DNA of 64,000 bases from Pseudodesulfovibrio sp. S3 (GTDB taxonomy: Bacteria; Desulfobacterota; Desulfovibrionia; Desulfovibrionales; Desulfovibrionaceae), in assembly GCF_004025585.1 (NCBI RefSeq), contig NZ_QTZO01000011.1, positions 1 to 64,000 of the forward strand. Direction: 5' to 3'. Within the stretch, counting starts at the first letter, position 1. Each line of letters begins with the position of its first letter. The position numbers were made by a program, and so were the translations under genes. Shown here piece by piece: positions 4,371 through 12,051 of the stretch. The notes under the pieces are model-generated. The model did no database searches. It was not told the DNA's origin and worked only from the letters and a program-made list of their open reading frames with translations.

Positions 4371-4628
4371 CTAATGGCCTTCGTCGAATCCCTGCCCTGC
4401 CTTATAGGCTTCCCATTCCTCATGGGTCACATCGCCATTCTTGTCGGCATCGGCCTGTTCAAAGACAGAAGTGTCTCCATCGGAAAAGGCCACCAGGAAT
4501 TCACTCTTGGACATGCAGCCATCCACGTCGGCATCCAGGGAGAAGAAACAGACATTGTAATTGGTCTGTGCCGCCACAGGCTGACACATGAAGCAGACCA
4601 GGATCAGGACAAAAAACAGTTTTTTCAT
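4371..4628 (-). CDS. Small exported EF-hand calcium-binding protein
   Basis: This 85-residue protein has a Sec signal peptide (MKKLFFVLILVCFMCQPVAA) and two EF-hand loops: DADVDGCMSKSEF, then DADKNGDVTHEEW. Both keep the acidic positions needed for calcium. It is probably periplasmic. It starts 24 bases after the CsoR-family gene on the same strand, so it is probably co-transcribed with that regulator. Two extra Cys residues near the first loop could form a disulfide. Its role in the neighbouring sulfur operon is unknown. Confidence 0.75.
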   Translation of the reverse strand: MKKLFFVLILVCFMCQPVAAQTNYNVCFFSLDADVDGCMSKSEFLVAFSDGDTSVFEQADADKNGDVTHEEWEAYKAGQGFDEGH

Positions 4629-4652: not shown

Positions 4653-4949
4653 CTAACCTTCAATAAAACCGGTCACGACATTGATAAACTTATTCAGGGA
4701 TTCCTTCGCATCATGGCCCGCCTCAATGGATTCGGCATAACACCTGAGCAAATACCGTTTCAGGATCAGCTTGTTGGCCGACTGAAGTGCCGACCGGACG
4801 GCCTTGACCTGAACCAGTATGTCTTCACATTCCTTGCCCGCCTCGATCATGCCCTGTATACCACGGACCTGACCTTCAATCCGTTTCATACGGGACAGGA
4901 CGTTTTTCTTGATCGCCTCTTCTTCCATGGTTGTCGTCTCGTCCATCAT
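4653..4949 (-). CDS. CsoR/CstR-family (DUF156) transcriptional repressor
   Basis: This 98-residue all-helical protein has the DUF156 core (RMKRIEGQVRGIQGMIE). CsoR copper sensors use a Cys-His-Cys set. Here Cys41 and Cys70 keep the usual 29-residue spacing, but the position four before Cys70 is Tyr66 rather than His. Loss of that His with retention of both Cys is the pattern of CstR persulfide sensors, which control rhodanese and sulfur genes. The neighbourhood contains rhodanese and sulfur-redox genes, so a sulfane-sulfur sensor is more likely than a copper sensor. A good AAGGAG site precedes the double ATG. It is divergent from the TorD-like gene. Confidence 0.85.
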   Translation of the reverse strand: MMDETTTMEEEAIKKNVLSRMKRIEGQVRGIQGMIEAGKECEDILVQVKAVRSALQSANKLILKRYLLRCYAESIEAGHDAKESLNKFINVVTGFIEG

Positions 4950-5045: not shown

Positions 5046-5663
5046 ATGACTGTTTCCGACACCAAGACCTTCCTGCTCAACCTCGTGGAGCTGTGCGTCA
5101 CCGTCTTTCGCGGACCCGATGCAGACACATGGTCAAAAATGGCAGACTCTGGATTGCCTGAACTCCTCGACCGTGTCCAGGGAATTCCCGGCTTCCCGGC
5201 CGCTCCTGTCCGGGGACTCGCAAAAGCCCTGTCGGACTGTCGCCGGACCGGGGGATTCTCGCCCCTGGAGACCGAATATGTCCGCCTGTTCATTGCGTGT
5301 CCGGGCGGCGTCCCCGCCCCGCTCTACCAGTCCTGCCACCAGGACACGCAACCCCGAACCATGGGCCAAAGCGCCCTGGACATGCAGTCCCGCCTCGATG
5401 AAGCTGGCCTTGAAATTTCCCTGCCTTCCAACGAACCGCCCGACCACCTGACCATCGAACTCGAATACCTTTTCTTCCTGCTCTCCGAAGAATGGTTCCG
5501 GGACGCTTCCCGTGCCGGCCGGGGTATTGATTTCGCCTCAACGGTCATGCTGCCCTGGGTGCGCCGTTTCCGCAACGCCGTGGCCGCAGCCGATCCGCAC
5601 CCTGTTTTCCTGCACACGGCGGACATCGCCGTGGTCATGCTCGAAGCCCTGGTCAAGACCTAG
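5046..5663 (+). CDS. TorD/DmsD-family molybdoenzyme chaperone
   Basis: This 205-residue cytoplasmic helical protein has the TorD-family signature in EPPDHLTIELEYLFFLL and the upstream LETEYVRLFI and LYQSCHQ segments. These chaperones bind the Tat signal of a molybdopterin enzyme and help cofactor loading before export. The obvious client is the Tat-type molybdopterin oxidoreductase at 9364-11559. A GGAGG site lies 8 bases before the ATG. Its last 4 bases overlap the 3' end of the convergent rhodanese-thioredoxin gene. It has its own promoter region shared with the divergent csoR-like gene. Confidence 0.85.
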   Translation: MTVSDTKTFLLNLVELCVTVFRGPDADTWSKMADSGLPELLDRVQGIPGFPAAPVRGLAKALSDCRRTGGFSPLETEYVRLFIACPGGVPAPLYQSCHQDTQPRTMGQSALDMQSRLDEAGLEISLPSNEPPDHLTIELEYLFFLLSEEWFRDASRAGRGIDFASTVMLPWVRRFRNAVAAADPHPVFLHTADIAVVMLEALVKT

Positions 5664-6673
5664 TCAGTCCCCTCGGCCTTGACAACGGCTGCACGGAGCA
5701 CGCTCAGGAACCGCTCGTCCGGCTCGAAATACCCGCGCTTGATCAGTTCTATGGTCCAGGTGCCGTCGCCTTCGGCGCGCACCAGATAGGCCAACGGCAG
5801 TTCTGCCTGGCCCAGGCACTCGAAAATCTGTCCGCCCTTGTCCGAGAACAGAGGGTAGGCCACATCGTAATGTTTCCTGAAGCTGACCACGGCCCTGTTG
5901 GAATCGTAGACCCCAAGGCCGATGATCTTGAGCCGCCCGGCCAGCACCGGGTCCGCCTCCACCTGCTTGAAAAACCGCGTCAGCTTCTTGGTTTCGGCCA
6001 CGCAATCGCTGCACAGGGTGTTGTAGAGCTGGATAAGCAGGAACCGGGCCTTCAATTCCGAGAGTTGCAGGAACCTGGTCCCTTCGGGCAGGTCCAGGTA
6101 TGCCCGGTCCTCGTCCCCGTTCAACACCGCCACCCGACAGGTTGGGAACGAATCCCCCACGGTCAGGATATGCTTTTCTTCCTTCACTCCGACCACGAGA
6201 TCGGGATACCGCGCCTTCCAGCCGTGGAACCCTGCCGGATATCGGTATACCCGTGAATAACCGAGACGCACTGCCCAGCGCGCCGCAATGGAGCTGCGCA
6301 GTCACCTGAAGCTCCGGCAATAGATGACCAAGGCCCGCTTCTTGTCGCCGGTCAGGGCTTCCAGGGCCTGGCCCTTGGCCTGTGGCAGGTCCATGTTGTC
6401 GCCCAGGTCGAATTCCAGGTTGACGGCTTTCGGAATATGCCCGGCCGCGAACTCATAATCGGCCCGCGCATCGAGCAGGACCATGTCCCCGCCGCTCTCG
6501 ATGAGCGCCTTGAGCCCCGCGTCGTCCAGCAGGGCATACCCCTCACGCTCCGCCTCGGCCTTGGCAGAGGACCACCATGCCTCGTTTTCATCCGCCCATG
6601 CGGGCCGGAAGCCCACAAAGCACAAGGCGAGGAGCAGACATGCAACATAGGAATATGTTCTTGGCATATGCAC
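5660..6673 (-). CDS. Exported rhodanese-thioredoxin fusion with in-frame TGA (candidate selenocysteine)
   Basis: The reading frame runs from 6673 to 5660 and is interrupted only by TGA at 6302-6304 (codon 124). Before the TGA are a signal peptide and a rhodanese domain ending YCRSFR. After it the same frame continues LRSSIAARWAVRLGY and YRYPAGFHGW, the normal end of a rhodanese domain. A thioredoxin/TlpA-like domain with Cys221-x2-Cys224 (CSDC) follows. The two clean C-x4-C rhodanese domains of the adjacent gene show that the TGA replaces the second Cys, giving Cys119-x4-Sec124. Selenocysteine insertion explains this better than a random nonsense mutation, though a pseudogene cannot be excluded. 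It is the last gene of the sulfur operon and probably reduces or relays sulfane sulfur in the periplasm. Confidence 0.75.
6271..6301 (-). other. Stem-loop directly downstream of the TGA, candidate SECIS
   Basis: Immediately after the TGA, in the mRNA sense, CUGCGCAGC (6293-6301) can pair with GCUGGGCAG (6271-6279). This gives 8 pairs with one G-G mismatch around a 13-base loop containing GCGG. Bacterial SECIS elements are stem-loops just 3' of the UGA. This one starts closer to the UGA than classical examples and lacks an obvious G in the first loop positions, so the assignment is tentative. Confidence 0.4.
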
Positions 6674-6735: not shown

Positions 6736-7833
6736 CTACTTGTTGGGATGAACCTCGTAGCTGTTGTCTTCGCCGAAGGCGTTGGTGGCTTCGAGATAGA
6801 AGACATCCTTGACGTCGGGACGAAGATCCTTGAACAGGTAGAACGCCTCGCCGGCCCTGGCTCCGGTGGCACAGGAAAAGACGATGGGCCTGTCGGTCGG
6901 AATTTCGCCGGCCTTCTTCTCAACCATGTTGACCGGCATGTTGATGGCGGACGGAAAGTGCCCTGCGGCGTACTCCTCGGGGTCGCGCACGTCGATGAGC
7001 AGGATGGCCTCCGGGTTTTCCTTGATGGTCTTCAGGAACCACTCGGTGTCCACCGCGCCTTCAGCTTCCCCGGCCTTGACCGCGGTGTCGGCGCCGCCGA
7101 ACATCTCCTTCCAGCCGGGGTATCCGGATTCGGCGACCACGACATTCTTGTAGCCGAGGTAACGGGCCTTGATTGCAGACTTGTGGGACAGGGCACAGGC
7201 ATATCCGCCGCAGTAGTAGACCAGGGTGGTCTCCACCTTGTCGATGGGCAGCAGGCCGCGCTTGTCCGCAAAATCCTTCTCGGGAATACCGATGGCGGAC
7301 GGGATGGCCCCGTCCAGGAACTTCTTGTACGGACGGGCGTCGATGAGCATGTACTTTTCACCGGCGGAAATCCTGGCGTTCAGGTTCTCGAGACCGATGG
7401 AATAGTAAGGTGCGTTCTTCTTGAAATCCGGGAAACCGGCGGCATAGACCTTGACGTTGGTATACCCCAGGGCCTCGGCCGCATACGCGGACTTGTGAGA
7501 CAGGGGGCAATCGAATCCGCCGCAATAGAAGATCAGCAGATCGTCCTTCTTGGCAGGCAGCTGGTCGACCATCTTGTCGAACTGGCTGGTCGGAATGGAC
7601 ACTGCTGTAGGAATGTACCCATCGACATACTTGGGCTTGTAGGGCCTGGAGTCGACGATCATCACGCCCTTGGGCTGGGGCATCTTGGCATACTTGGCCA
7701 CGAACTTGTAATCAACAATGGAGTGGAACTCCTTGAACACGGGCTTCTTGGCCTCTTCGGCCACGGCCACGCCGCCCATCGCCACCACGGCGAAGACCAG
7801 CATCATGGCAACGGCAAACATTCTCTTGTACAT
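6736..7833 (-). CDS. Periplasmic triple-rhodanese sulfurtransferase
   Basis: This 365-residue protein has a Sec signal peptide and three rhodanese domains. Domains 1 and 2 (about residues 40-140 and 150-250) carry paired cysteines: YCGGFDCPLSHKSA and YCGGYACALSHKSA. Domain 3 (about 265-360) carries a single active-site Cys in SCATGARAG. Rhodaneses carry sulfane sulfur on the active-site Cys, so the protein probably accepts or delivers sulfur for the molybdoenzyme complex encoded upstream in the same operon. It lies between the cytochrome b gene and the rhodanese-thioredoxin gene, with short gaps of 62-66 bases. Confidence 0.9.
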   Translation of the reverse strand: MYKRMFAVAMMLVFAVVAMGGVAVAEEAKKPVFKEFHSIVDYKFVAKYAKMPQPKGVMIVDSRPYKPKYVDGYIPTAVSIPTSQFDKMVDQLPAKKDDLLIFYCGGFDCPLSHKSAYAAEALGYTNVKVYAAGFPDFKKNAPYYSIGLENLNARISAGEKYMLIDARPYKKFLDGAIPSAIGIPEKDFADKRGLLPIDKVETTLVYYCGGYACALSHKSAIKARYLGYKNVVVAESGYPGWKEMFGGADTAVKAGEAEGAVDTEWFLKTIKENPEAILLIDVRDPEEYAAGHFPSAINMPVNMVEKKAGEIPTDRPIVFSCATGARAGEAFYLFKDLRPDVKDVFYLEATNAFGEDNSYEVHPNK

Positions 7834-7899: not shown

Positions 7900-8631
7900 C
7901 TATTCCGAGACTTGCTCACCCTCGGACTTGACCTTGTTCCACCACAGACGATGATGATGCTTGGCGTAATTCCCGGGGACCACGCCGGTGAACATGGACT
8001 TGAAGCCGGGCCGTTCCTCCGGCGAAATGGCCGCCATGTAGATATGCACCAGCAGGCCCGCAAAAACCAGGCCCACGCTGATGAAGTGCAGGGCCACGGA
8101 CCAGCCGACCATGCCGGTGGCCTCGGCCCCGAAAGTGCGGTCGGACAGGTACATGATCACGCCGGTGACGGCAATGACGACACCGCCCACCACGGATGCC
8201 TGGGCAAATGCCTTCTGACCCATGTTGTAGTATCCCTGGTCAGGCAACTCCGGGTCCATGCCGACCATTTTCAAGGCCTTGGGACCCAGGGTCATCAGGA
8301 CCATCTTCTTGAGCAGCCAGGCCATGTCGCGGGCCGGACTGACTGCAAAGACCTCGGCCAGGAAGAACCTCGCTCCCCTGAAGTTGACCAGCAAATAGAA
8401 CAGGAACCCCAATATCCAGACGATCCCGATGCCCTCATGGATGGTCAGCAGGTTTCCGCCGCCGCCCACCAGGGAACGCATGGCCTCGGGATACCCCGAA
8501 CCGAACGGATCGATGGCAGGATTCCGGATCAAGCCCACGCCGGTGAGCAGGAGCAGCAGCCAGCAGGCCGCATTGAACCAGTGAATGAAGATATCGGACT
8601 TGTCATGCCGTTTGAAGAGCGTGTTAGGCAT
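7900..8631 (-). CDS. Cytochrome b subunit of molybdopterin oxidoreductase (FdnI-like)
   Basis: This 243-residue membrane protein has about four to five transmembrane helices. Candidate heme-ligating His residues are visible near FIHWFNAACW, LTIHEGIGI, VALHF and LVHIYM. This arrangement matches the diheme cytochrome b subunits of formate dehydrogenase and related complexes, which link periplasmic enzymes to the quinone pool. The ATG at 8631 is chosen because it gives the conserved start MPNTLFKRHDKSDIFIHW and overlaps the end of the ferredoxin subunit gene by 8 bases. Confidence 0.9.
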   Translation of the reverse strand: MPNTLFKRHDKSDIFIHWFNAACWLLLLLTGVGLIRNPAIDPFGSGYPEAMRSLVGGGGNLLTIHEGIGIVWILGFLFYLLVNFRGARFFLAEVFAVSPARDMAWLLKKMVLMTLGPKALKMVGMDPELPDQGYYNMGQKAFAQASVVGGVVIAVTGVIMYLSDRTFGAEATGMVGWSVALHFISVGLVFAGLLVHIYMAAISPEERPGFKSMFTGVVPGNYAKHHHRLWWNKVKSEGEQVSE

Positions 8632-9364
8632 CTGTGTCCTCCTTGTGATCATCGCTCGAACCGACCAGCAACTGACGACCGAGCATGGCGAGTACGCCCA
8701 GGCCGGACAGGGCCACAATGCCCTTGATGAACGGAGCGGACTCCTTCATGGCCACCATGGACGCGGGCACCACGGCCTCGCGGCCCCACTCGCCCGGTCC
8801 GGGGTCGCCGATATAATACATGTTGGGCTTGGTGTCTGTCCTGGCGGCCACGCGGGTCAGCCGCGCCTTGTTCGCATTATACAGGATACCCGCCGCACTC
8901 GCAGGGTCGTTGATGTCTCCGAACACGCGCGCCTTGGTCGGACAGGTGTCCACGCACGCGGGCTGAAGGCCTGCTGCCCGGCGTTCGGGACAGTAATTGC
9001 ACTTGTCCGCCTTGCGCGAAACCGTGTTGCGAAAACGGGCATCGTAGGGACAGGCCGGAATACAGTTGCCGCAGCCGATGCACAGGGTTTCGTCAATGAC
9101 CACGATACCGGTCTCCGGGTCCTTGTAGGTGGCACCTGTGGGACAGGCCTCCACGCAGGTGGGCCGTTCGCAATGCATACAGGCTCCGGGCTGGAACCTG
9201 GCCCTGCCGTCGGATTTTCCGGGAACCGCCGGTTCGCCGGTCTGTTTGATCCAGTTGCGGAACTGGCCTTCGGGCACATCATTGGCCACCTTGCAGGAAG
9301 CCACGCACCCCTTGCAGTCGATGCACTTGGCCGCATCGATGACCATGGCGAATTGTTGAGCCAT
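8624..9364 (-). CDS. Four-cluster [4Fe-4S] ferredoxin subunit with C-terminal anchor
   Basis: This 246-residue electron-transfer subunit has four cysteine motifs, starting with CIDCKGCVASC, CMHCERPTCVEAC and CIGCGNCIPAC and ending with a CNYC/ACVDTC set. It would conduct electrons between the molybdopterin subunit and the cytochrome b. A hydrophobic helix near the end (FIKGIVALSGLGVLAML) probably anchors it to the membrane, as in FdnH-type subunits. Its start codon shares a base with the stop of the catalytic subunit gene. Confidence 0.93.
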   Translation of the reverse strand: MAQQFAMVIDAAKCIDCKGCVASCKVANDVPEGQFRNWIKQTGEPAVPGKSDGRARFQPGACMHCERPTCVEACPTGATYKDPETGIVVIDETLCIGCGNCIPACPYDARFRNTVSRKADKCNYCPERRAAGLQPACVDTCPTKARVFGDINDPASAAGILYNANKARLTRVAARTDTKPNMYYIGDPGPGEWGREAVVPASMVAMKESAPFIKGIVALSGLGVLAMLGRQLLVGSSDDHKEDTDA

Positions 9365-11559
9365 TACGCCACCTTCCTTGTTACCGTAACAAATGTCGTA
9401 TGCATGGACGCATTGCCGGTGACAACGTCGTAATCATCGTCCAGTAGTTCGTTGATGGACGCGCCGTTGCCATGGGACAGATGCTGCATGGTGGACAGGG
9501 TGTTGAAACCCGAGAGCATGAACACCGTGTCGCTGCGAATCTTGTCCGTGACCTCGGCCTTGAGTTCCTGCCTGCCCACAGGGCTGGTCACCTCGACCAG
9601 CTCGCCGTCGGCGATGCCCAGCTCCCGTGCGGACTCGGTGTTGAGCCACAGGGTGTTGGTGGGCACCATCTCGTGCAGGAGCGCATTGTTGTTCGTGGAG
9701 GTCTGGGTGACCATGGCGTTGCGGCCGATGACCATACGGAACTGATTCTTCGGCGGATTGACGGGCGGCGTATAGACCGGCATCGGGTCAAGACCCATCT
9801 GCTCGTACCGCTGGTTATACAGTTCCACCTTCTTGGACAAAGTCTTGTAGATTCGGCCATCGTAGATGCCGTAGACCTTGGACGGATTGTAATAGACGCC
9901 GTCGCGGTCCATGACCCCCAGGGCCTCGGGGATATCGCGGGTCTGCTTCTCGCGATATTCCTCGATGGTGAAGTCGAAGTATTCGCCCAGATCCATCTTC
10001 CCGGCTATGCCCTTCATGATCTCGAAGAGCGGCTTGGATTCATACAGCGGCTCAATGACCGGATCGCGCTTGACCACGCAGGCGCAGGCCACGGAACCCT
10101 GCAAGCCGGAGCACGGGTCCGTGCGTTCCAGATAGCTCTGGGAGGGCAGGACCAGGTCGGCCATCCAGGCGGTGTCGGACATGGCGATGTCCACCACGGT
10201 GACGAAGTCCATCTTGTTCATCATCTCCATGGTCTTCTTGCGGTTGGGCGCCGTGCCCATGGGGTTGGTCTTGTAAATAAACCAGCCCCGGATGGGGTAG
10301 GGGTCGTCGGCCAAGACCGAGTCGCGGGTGACCAGGAAGGAGCCTTCGTGCTCGAACATCATGGGCACCTTTTCGGCGTCGATACGATCCTCCTGGTTCT
10401 CGTCGTACCAGGGAGCATCATAGGAAACACCCTTGAGACCCACCTGACGGGCCGCCAGCAAACCGCCGGGCTTGTCCCAGTTGCCGAGCAGGCCGTTGAC
10501 TATGGCAAAACTGCGGCGAATCTGGGTGGAGTCCTCGTAGTCGGAGGTGCGGCGGCCGGGATAGACCATGGCCGCCGGAGCAGCGGCTGCCAGTTCACGG
10601 GCCATGCGGGTGATATCCTCGGCCGGAATGCCGCACTGCTCGCTGGCAAAGCCGGGGGTGTACTGCTGAACATGCTCGGTGAGCTGTTCCATGCCGTAGG
10701 TCTTTTCCTCGATCCACCGGGGGTCGAAAAGTTGTTCGTTGATGATGACGTGAGCCAGGGCGAGCATGAAGGCCATGTCCGTGCCCGGACGCACCGGATA
10801 CCACTCGTGGGACAGGGCCGCGGTCTTGGTGTAACGGGGATCGAGCGTCACCAGCTTGCAGCCGTTCTCGCGAATGGCGGTCATCAGGTCTATGGAATCC
10901 GGGGTGACCAGGGCCTCGAAGCGGTTGGCCCCGACCATCATTACATATTTGGAATTGAGCACGTCCGCAAAGGGAACCTCCCCGAACGTGTCCAGGAAGG
11001 CACGACTGCCGGACACCAGACACAGGGACTCGTGCGAAGTGACGTTGAACGAACCGTAGACCTCGGCAAACCGGCCCACGAACTGTGAATGCAGGTCGGT
11101 TCCGGCAGAGAAAAGCTGGCCGCAGGAGGTGTATTTCCTGCGGGTCTCCTCCATCTTCTGCGCGGCCATGTCAATGGCCTCGTCCCAGGGAATGCGCTGC
11201 CACTTGCCTTCGCCGCGCGCACCCTTTCTCAGCAGGGGATGCTTGAGGCGATCCGGGTCATAGACCTGGGCAATGCCCGCATTGCCGCGGGCGCAGAGCA
11301 TACCGCGCGACTTCAGAAATTTGGGGTTGGGATCGAGCTTCCTGACGACTCCGTCTTCAACATGGGCAATGAGACCGCACTTGTTGAAGCAAATGTCGCA
11401 GACAGAAAACCTGGAATCCCAGGCAGGCTCGACCACAGCGGCGGCATGGGCCTTCTTCAAACCGCCGAGCAGGACAGGACCGCCCAAAGCCCCCGCGGCT
11501 ACAAGGCCGGAAGCCCGGAAAAAATCTCGACGGGACATGGTTTGCTTTGAATTCGACAC
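9364..11559 (-). CDS. Tat-exported molybdopterin oxidoreductase, PhsA/PsrA-like catalytic subunit
   Basis: This 731-residue member of the DMSO reductase family opens with a twin-arginine signal (SRRDFFRASG). A [4Fe-4S] site follows at Cys54, Cys57, Cys61 and Cys89. The likely molybdenum ligand is Cys180 in SHESLC. The length and Cys ligand suit thiosulfate, polysulfide or tetrathionate-type enzymes, and the rhodanese partners point to a sulfane-sulfur substrate. The exact substrate cannot be read from sequence. The GTG at 11559 is preferred because GGAGG lies 6 bases before it; an upstream ATG at 11580 overlaps that site. Confidence 0.88.
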   Translation of the reverse strand: MSNSKQTMSRRDFFRASGLVAAGALGGPVLLGGLKKAHAAAVVEPAWDSRFSVCDICFNKCGLIAHVEDGVVRKLDPNPKFLKSRGMLCARGNAGIAQVYDPDRLKHPLLRKGARGEGKWQRIPWDEAIDMAAQKMEETRRKYTSCGQLFSAGTDLHSQFVGRFAEVYGSFNVTSHESLCLVSGSRAFLDTFGEVPFADVLNSKYVMMVGANRFEALVTPDSIDLMTAIRENGCKLVTLDPRYTKTAALSHEWYPVRPGTDMAFMLALAHVIINEQLFDPRWIEEKTYGMEQLTEHVQQYTPGFASEQCGIPAEDITRMARELAAAAPAAMVYPGRRTSDYEDSTQIRRSFAIVNGLLGNWDKPGGLLAARQVGLKGVSYDAPWYDENQEDRIDAEKVPMMFEHEGSFLVTRDSVLADDPYPIRGWFIYKTNPMGTAPNRKKTMEMMNKMDFVTVVDIAMSDTAWMADLVLPSQSYLERTDPCSGLQGSVACACVVKRDPVIEPLYESKPLFEIMKGIAGKMDLGEYFDFTIEEYREKQTRDIPEALGVMDRDGVYYNPSKVYGIYDGRIYKTLSKKVELYNQRYEQMGLDPMPVYTPPVNPPKNQFRMVIGRNAMVTQTSTNNNALLHEMVPTNTLWLNTESARELGIADGELVEVTSPVGRQELKAEVTDKIRSDTVFMLSGFNTLSTMQHLSHGNGASINELLDDDYDVVTGNASMHTTFVTVTRKVA

Positions 11560-11730
11560 TGAATACCTCCGGATATCCATTGGTCAGTCGTACGTCAGCG
11601 CTTCTCCACCGCCCTATTTCCCTCGGCTCGAAGCGTTGGGAGAAGCCACTTGATGGTCTTTGCCTCCCACTTCCCACGCAGGAGGCGAAGGACCGCGCCG
11701 ACGTGGCCGGCGCGGCCCCATTGCATCATG

Positions 11731-12051
11731 CTAACTGCACTTTGCCGGGGACGGCGAGTCCTTGGCGTAATCATGCAGGTAGGTAAAAATGTCGTTCAGA
11801 TCCTCTTCGGAAATGGTCCACTCGGGGCTGCACTTGATCTTGCCGGTATCGGAGAACAGAGCCGTCCATTCGGCCTGGGTCTTGTCCGCCGGGCTTATGT
11901 CGCTGGCGGAACTGCCATGACAGGAACGGCAGTTCTTGCGATAAAGGAACTTGCCCTTGCGGGCATTGCCACCACCCATGGCAAAGGCCATGGAAACAGC
12001 GAAAATGGTAATCAGGGCCGTTGCCACGGCCAGGACGAGCTTGCTTTTCAT
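11731..12051 (-). CDS. Periplasmic monoheme class I cytochrome c
   Basis: This 106-residue protein has a signal peptide followed by the heme site CRSCH at about residues 41-45. A distal region with possible Met or His ligands is not clearly seen. It is the first gene of the leftward sulfur operon and probably exchanges electrons with the molybdopterin complex in the periplasm. The GGAGGGA ribosome site is strong. A 171-base gap separates it from the catalytic subunit gene. Nothing recognisable was found in that gap. Confidence 0.85.
   Translation of the reverse strand: MKSKLVLAVATALITIFAVSMAFAMGGGNARKGKFLYRKNCRSCHGSSASDISPADKTQAEWTALFSDTGKIKCSPEWTISEEDLNDIFTYLHDYAKDSPSPAKCS

Follow-up and report, generated by a model that had tools for sequence, protein, structure and literature searches.

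A predicted selenocysteine-containing rhodanese fused to a ResA-like thioredoxin domain, encoded with a Phs/Psr-like molybdoenzyme in Pseudodesulfovibrio sp. S3

The DNA analysed here is a 64,000-nucleotide stretch from Pseudodesulfovibrio sp. S3 (the window), which carries on its minus strand, in this order, genes for a cytochrome c, a molybdoenzyme, an FeS protein, a cytochrome b, a triple rhodanese and a candidate selenoprotein; beyond the last of these are a convergent gene for a TorD-type chaperone and then one for a CsoR-family repressor. The first gene of this conserved set (11731–12051) codes for a small c-type cytochrome, identified by eye from a single CxxCH and having no NCBIfam match at an E-value of 1e-8. 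The molybdopterin oxidoreductase (9364–11580), with an N-terminal twin-arginine motif (SRRDFF, by eye), is Phs/Psr-like; its best PDB match is the 'thiosulfate reductase' 2vpw (E 1.2e-114), and it is thus related to the catalytic subunit of the PsrABC/PhsABC systems, although at 520.9 bits it falls below the cut-off of 694 and outside PhsA as defined by that model. One passage of PMC13047784 states that the substrate of a Phs/Psr-type enzyme cannot be deduced from its sequence. The FeS subunit (8624–9364) is NrfC/TtrB/DsrO-like but below the cut-offs of those models, and the membrane subunit (7900–8631) differs from that of PsrABC/PhsABC, having no NrfD-type match at an E-value of 1e-8 and matching instead an FdnI-like cytochrome b model, at 89.1 bits and below the cut-off of 115.85. 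The triple rhodanese (6736–7833) has two domains with C-x4-C at the place where the selenoprotein has C-x4-U; the motif YC-x4-C-P/A-L-S, originally predicted to occur twice in this protein, is indeed found in domains 1 and 2 (YCGGFDCPLS and YCGGYACALS), while domain 3 differs (FSCATGARAG). Overall, the cluster looks like one for sulfur respiration.

The two flanking genes lie on opposite strands. The TorD/DmsD-type chaperone is encoded on the plus strand (5046–5663), and its stop codon overlaps that of the selenoprotein gene at 5660–5663. The repressor (4653–4949, minus strand; PF02583, 92.2 bits) has Cys41 and Cys70, and we call it CstR-like because it keeps these two cysteines and has Tyr66 at the position where CsoR presumably has a Cu-binding histidine; both cysteines are kept among the 39 aligned copies, and Tyr66 is present in 38, with an alanine in the other. 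CstR is described in the relevant part of PMC9405070 as a dithiol sensor of reactive sulfur species, and from its residues the repressor at this locus is possibly a persulfide sensor.

The candidate selenoprotein gene (6667–5660, minus strand) is a single frame whose sole interruption is the TGA at 6304–6302, as was originally predicted, to which we add the strand. When this TGA is read as selenocysteine the product is 335 residues long with Sec122, the frame ending at the TAG at 5662–5660, and the residues flanking the codon are YCRSFR-U-LRSSIAARWAVRLGY. We have placed the start at the ATG at 6667 rather than at the GTG at 6673 because a Shine-Dalgarno-like GGGGAG lies 5 nt upstream of the ATG. 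A signal peptide can be recognized by eye (6593–6667), with cleavage expected after AWA, and export to the periplasm is predicted. The rhodanese domain (6212–6514) matches PF00581 at 61.9 bits, well above the gathering cut-off of 22.2, and contains Cys117 (codon 6317–6319), which is presumed to be the catalytic rhodanese cysteine and the partner of Sec122; this position is a cysteine in all 20 proteins of our alignment A1, and in 87 of 89 distinct homologues, the remaining two having a TGA. The C-terminal part (5765–6076) is a ResA/AhpC-TSA-like thioredoxin domain by both profile and structure matches, and carries a CSDC redox motif (6002–6013; Cys219 and Cys222), of which both cysteines are present in 20 of 20 A1 members, although the motif itself varies among relatives, with CNDC and other forms. 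The ResA-like thioredoxin model NF002854 scores only 38.4 bits, under its cut-off of 170, but the fold is nonetheless alike.

An AlphaFold2 model built from alignment A1 has a mean pLDDT of 86.1 and a pTM of 0.58, such that the individual domains look well modelled and their relative placement is unsure. With Foldseek the modelled C-terminal domain matches ResA (1st9_A, TM-score 0.85 by target length, rmsd 2.4); for the modelled rhodanese domain 6mxv_A ranks first, at an rmsd of 16.8, and 3tp9_A superposes over 110 columns at an rmsd of 2.4. These matches bear out the original prediction that a Cys/Sec rhodanese and a CSDC thioredoxin are united in one protein, and it is the rhodanese fusion that distinguishes the protein from ResA/CcmG. 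The canonical rhodanese active loop is C-x-x-G-x-R, six residues in length. That of the window protein does not conform, being C-x6-R with the selenocysteine at the sixth residue, and is two residues longer than the loops of 6mxv, 8w14 and 3d1p.

We have compared the TGA codon among 134 mapped loci, corresponding to 89 distinct domains, all found with queries that bear a cysteine at the Sec122 position. The Sec122 codon is a TGA in 73 of the 89 and a cysteine codon in the other 16, and the arrangements are C-x4-TGA in 71, C-x4-C in 16 and TGA-x4-TGA in two, the last being members of the TsoB family in which it is the second TGA that sits at the Sec122 codon. Both positions of the pair are therefore Cys or Sec in 89 of 89, and the proposal that the TGA falls on a conserved cysteine codon is confirmed by an in-frame TGA recurring across homologues at a Cys-equivalent position. 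The Cys forms read YCRNFRC, YCRSISC, YCRSLQC and similar, and include two distant rhodaneses of the Opitutales (L141, L142) that lie outside the operon. Within the genus, 30 of 36 genomes have a match at an E-value of 1e-20, and six have none; in 24 of the 30 the match bears exactly one TGA, located at the Sec122 codon in every case (24/24). Because the same codon is a TGA in all of these genus genes as well as in 73 of 89 homologues, the coincidence is beyond chance.

More widely, 59 of 297 genomes of the order have matches at an E-value of 1e-25, spread over 13 of 55 genera, and a search of the phylum gives matches in 164 of 395 genomes, many of them single-domain among the matches listed and only a few fetched loci having been mapped. 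A contig profile scan started from the single protein gave 21 pattern matches with no relative confirmed among them, and the scan started from alignment A1 yielded 39 loci. A quick tree of the 89 homologues implies at least 10 changes between Sec and Cys, of which two are forced by strongly supported branches, one third of the inner branches being weak; for example, the Cys gene L034 groups with two TGA genes in a clade with support of 97.

Could the TGA really end the protein, or does it reflect a sequencing error or gene decay? The distribution of the codon just described speaks against this, as do the sequences downstream of it. Among 23 genus genes the differences at first, second and third codon positions are 0.298, 0.219 and 0.525 before the TGA and 0.207, 0.157 and 0.459 in the last domain, and since the differences in the last domain favor third positions, protein constraint persists past the TGA. 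Neither the frameshifts nor the decay in close relatives that had been named as grounds for doubt are seen; the 24 TGA-bearing genus genes align in a single frame that is free of further stops up to the end of each gene. On the conserved codon, the one-frame alignment and the codon-position differences we reject a stop codon, pseudogene or sequencing error, which we regard as barely credible. Some matches contain a second TGA or a TAG, which by its position is apparently a normal stop. We note also that codon identity among the genus genes in the stretch beginning at codon −1 is 0.686 where 0.31 is expected, which ranks fifth of 321, the four higher-ranking stretches all beginning at the alignment's N terminus, and that GCA at codon +10 is retained in 20 of the 23 genes.

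The stem-loop that was predicted to follow the TGA directly stands only in part. Over the 60 nt that follow, the minimum free energy (MFE) fold does not outperform shuffled sequences (z −0.43; 64 of 200 shuffles fold as well). There is, however, a suboptimal bSECIS-like hairpin with comparative support; the MFE structures computed for 45 or 60 nt downstream of the TGA differ from it. This putative hairpin (6265–6284, minus strand) has an 8-bp stem formed by nucleotides 21–28 and 33–40, counted from the U of the UGA, and an apical GGGC loop (nucleotides 29–32) starting 25 nt after the UGA. It conforms to the published bSECIS model, which specifies a loop of 3–9 nt with a G in the first two loop positions, a distance of 16–37 nt from the UGA, a stem of 4–16 bp and an MFE of −7.5 or lower (PMC13188914); the 30-nt hairpin including the outer 4 bp has an energy of −13.3 kcal/mol. 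Set against synonymous recodings of the gene, of which 11.5% are as good, the hairpin alone is not significant, which, together with its not being the MFE fold, is what can be said for a true stop or a decayed gene. An Rfam scan of the window at gathering thresholds gives no match.

The support for the putative SECIS hairpin is comparative. In the synonymous recoding analysis 22 of 24 genes lie below the mean energy (mean z −1.19), five of the 24 at the 5% level or better, with L027 and L062 running in the opposite direction. In the 19 genus rows 86.2% of stem cells pair, two pairs are changed on both sides, and the covariation score of 0.173, against 0.127 for shuffled alignments, is reached by 3 of 500 shuffles; we note that sliding the stem by +2 columns gives five doubly changed cells versus three for the named stem. 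The 26 rows from outside the genus can form an alternative register (18–25/29–36) that pairs in 82.2% of cells but without excess covariation (123 of 500 shuffles), and in the genus this register is paired in 77.6% of cells, also without excess covariation. A loose screen recovers a candidate hairpin at −7.5 kcal/mol or lower in 49 of 54 loci, counting L024, whose loop is 14 nt away, and finds none in L027, L056, L058, L062 and L070. The fdhA genes of the same genome that contain a TGA (L096 and L097) have hairpins of the form UUGCGGCUCU-GGC or GGG-AGAGUC, with loops at distances of 23 and 25 nt from the UGA, and that of the rhodanese gene (UUGCGGCGCGCU-GGGC-AGUGCG) resembles them. The loop motif UUGCGGC...CU-GG is common to all three.

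Absence of the selenocysteine machinery had been named as a finding that would count against the original prediction, but the genome has a complete set: selA (529.5 bits), selB (395.3 bits, lying roughly 3.3 kb away from selA), a tRNA-Sec with anticodon TCA (79.3 bits) and selD (329.8 bits), the last itself carrying one in-frame TGA. We considered an altered code with UGA read as Cys or Trp; the tRNA found is the tRNA-Sec. Three formate dehydrogenase alpha genes score over the cut-off, two of them with a TGA; the third, which has none, is at G000:C4:295756-298764 (L098). SelA occurs in 67 of 68 genomes, which leaves no contrast for correlating the TGA with the machinery; the one genome where it is not seen, G104, has a completeness of 77% and does contain a TGA gene. 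The presence of the full machinery is a further point against a true stop, and with the conserved TGA, the cysteine at the same codon in homologues and the bSECIS-like hairpin, it bears out the claim of a selenoprotein. From these sequence comparisons we regard decoding of the TGA as selenocysteine as near certain.

The genes around the selenoprotein are conserved with it. We ran tblastn with the window proteins and counted distinct loci whose upstream sequence extends for 3.6 kb or more. The CytB, FeS and Moco genes lie upstream in the same orientation at 56 of 58 C-x4-U loci, 10 of 12 C-x4-C loci and neither of two TsoB loci; those without the set are L118, L140, L141, L142, L143 and L144. 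A triple-rhodanese relative is also present within 3.5 kb in 50 of 58 C-x4-U and 10 of 12 C-x4-C loci. Where 2.3 kb or more of downstream sequence is available, 43 of 62 C-x4-U and 12 of 14 C-x4-C loci have TorD; the repressor, of which divergent members could escape tblastn, is present at 32 and 7 of these loci, respectively. In L118, L122 and L124 the triple-rhodanese relative is downstream of the selenoprotein gene rather than upstream.

A periplasmic sulfane-sulfur reductase is, judged from sequence, the most likely function, and fits with the nearby Phs/Psr-like molybdoenzyme, C-x4-C rhodanese and CstR-like repressor. In the mechanism that we propose, the UGA would be translated as selenocysteine by SelA, SelB, SelC and SelD, directed by the downstream bSECIS hairpin, to give a periplasmic product with the Cys117-x4-Sec122 pair in an enlarged rhodanese active-site loop. 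Polysulfide, thiosulfate or the neighboring triple rhodanese would donate a sulfane sulfur to Cys117, giving Cys-SSH; Sec122 would then attack Cys117, with release of HS− and formation of a Cys-S-Se-Sec bond. The pair would be re-reduced by Cys219 and Cys222 of the ResA-like domain, with electrons from a DsbD/CcdA-type importer, and the two DsbD_TM proteins in the genome could be their source. The protein would thus belong to a Phs/Psr-type operon for periplasmic sulfur respiration, as the module that releases sulfide or recycles a sulfur carrier, and we consider this reading, taken together with selenocysteine decoding, to be probable. The U-x4-U rhodanese and DsbD-like half of TsoB would follow the same logic as C-x4-U with ResA, but with another partner. 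Rhodaneses are reported to be able to supply sulfur to sulfur-energy enzymes (Aussignargues 2012).

A second possibility is that the selenoprotein is a Sud-like sulfur carrier that hands sulfane sulfur to the active site of the molybdoenzyme, with the selenocysteine speeding sulfur exchange or resisting over-oxidation and the thioredoxin domain serving only to keep the pair reduced. Sud is a periplasmic rhodanese associated with the Psr molybdoenzyme and has neither a Sec nor a thioredoxin domain. Among the PDB sequence matches of the window protein is 1qxn, labelled 'sulfide dehydrogenase', which we take to be the Sud polysulfide-sulfur transferase of Wolinella; the similarity is modest, with an E-value of 4.6e-5 using a profile and 0.1 with the single domain. 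The close linkage to the upstream Moco, FeS and CytB genes agrees with a carrier, as does the existence of homologues that have no thioredoxin domain. However, a carrier requires just one thiol, and the second chalcogen is kept as Sec or Cys in every mapped homologue (the queries having had a cysteine there), while the fusions to a ResA-like domain here and to a DsbD-like half in TsoB point to reduction. We thus consider the carrier unlikely and favor the reductase.

The repressor raises a third explanation, in which the selenoprotein is protective and not respiratory, acting as a periplasmic detoxifier of persulfide or polysulfide under the CstR-like repressor, or reducing a different oxyanion, for example selenite. 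The presence of a CstR-like repressor at about half of the C-x4-U loci, and the retention of C41, Y66 and C70 in nearly all of its copies, agree with such a role; the linkage of the selenoprotein to the Phs/Psr-like genes is the tighter of the two, though the repressor may be undercounted, and we judge protection to be quite improbable.

The fused relay of the reductase is not universal, as shown by two sorts of family members. Four from genus g13 of the same family (L050, L051, L052 and L054), all outside A1, lack the cysteine pair at the CSDC position and have no C-terminal CxxC, yet keep the rhodanese C-x4-U, so their reductant must come from elsewhere. Members L055–L071 and L138–L140 are short, rhodanese-only proteins, predominantly Sec forms, and the majority lie in the same operon; in L055–L071 the thioredoxin domain is judged absent by length, and L059 and L063 are Cys forms.

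The nearest named family is TsoB (NF045694), a rhodanese/DsbD fusion-like selenoprotein of a three-selenoprotein operon, for which the work cited is Haft and Tolstoy 2025. The rhodanese domains are homologous (E 3.3e-27 over profile positions 7–152, with 20 of 20 A1 members matching), the second Sec of TsoB aligns with Sec122 (L143 and L144), and both are fused to a redox domain. However, the window protein reaches only 94.8 bits against the TsoB cut-off of 805 and, in place of the U-x4-U and DsbD-like C-terminal half of TsoB, carries C-x4-U and a ResA-like domain; the Phs/Psr-like operon that the window gene follows was not found at either of the two TsoB loci examined. The rhodanese-related (seleno)protein model rhodanese_LYCAU (NF041203) matches weakly, at 23.4 bits versus a cut-off of 115, and its motif is given as CxU in the pertinent section of a 2026 catalogue, unlike the C-x4-U here (PMC13188914).

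Rhodanese selenoproteins as such have been catalogued before. The relevant portions of the 2026 catalogue (PMC13188914) number them as forms 1–5 and give motifs of UxxS, UxxG, CxU and UxxG for forms 1–4; these are, as here, rhodanese domains with a Sec, and no rhodanese motif listed in those portions is CxxxxU. The U-L-R-S of the window protein can be read as 'UxxS', and form 1 (WP_010941598.1, compared by motif description only) may be the same family. Earlier tables in PMC9312934, PMC1088965, PMC2398784 and PMC5029168 also include, in the parts consulted, rhodanese selenoproteins, and the 'Sulfurtransferase homologous to a rhodanese-like protein' listed in the last of these (numbers 24 and 25) may overlap with the C-x4-U family; the word rhodanese is not used in the sections of the deep-Sep paper (PMC12013277) that we saw. 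In excerpts returned by full-text literature searches we recognized no description of a C-x4-U rhodanese/thioredoxin selenoprotein or of its operon. A C-x4-U rhodanese fused to thioredoxin in a Phs/Psr-like operon thus appears to be new, unless form 1 of the catalogue is the same family.

A broader reading, to which we give rather less than even weight, is that sulfate reducers widely possess a periplasmic, Sec-dependent persulfide reductase that has gone unrecognised. The Cys/Sec pair of its lengthened active-site loop would have converted a sulfur-transferring rhodanese into a reductase that releases sulfide, connected to a thioredoxin and dedicated to a Phs/Psr-type respiratory chain. Were this so, selenium would help determine sulfane-sulfur respiration or disproportionation in the Desulfobacterota, sulfane-sulfur metabolism would be tied to selenium supply, and genes split at the TGA by ordinary gene calling would be one selenoprotein in one operon of many sulfate reducers. 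It would also be a Sec-containing rhodanese with assayable chemistry, and the natural C-x4-U, C-x4-C and U-x4-U versions in related proteins offer a clear test of why selenocysteine is used.

A plasmid search matched six records, none with 80% query coverage, and a simple promoter scan was at chance level (two found versus 2.6 expected). The minus strand at 4371–4628, near the repressor gene, encodes a small, apparently exported protein that is EF-hand-like by eye.
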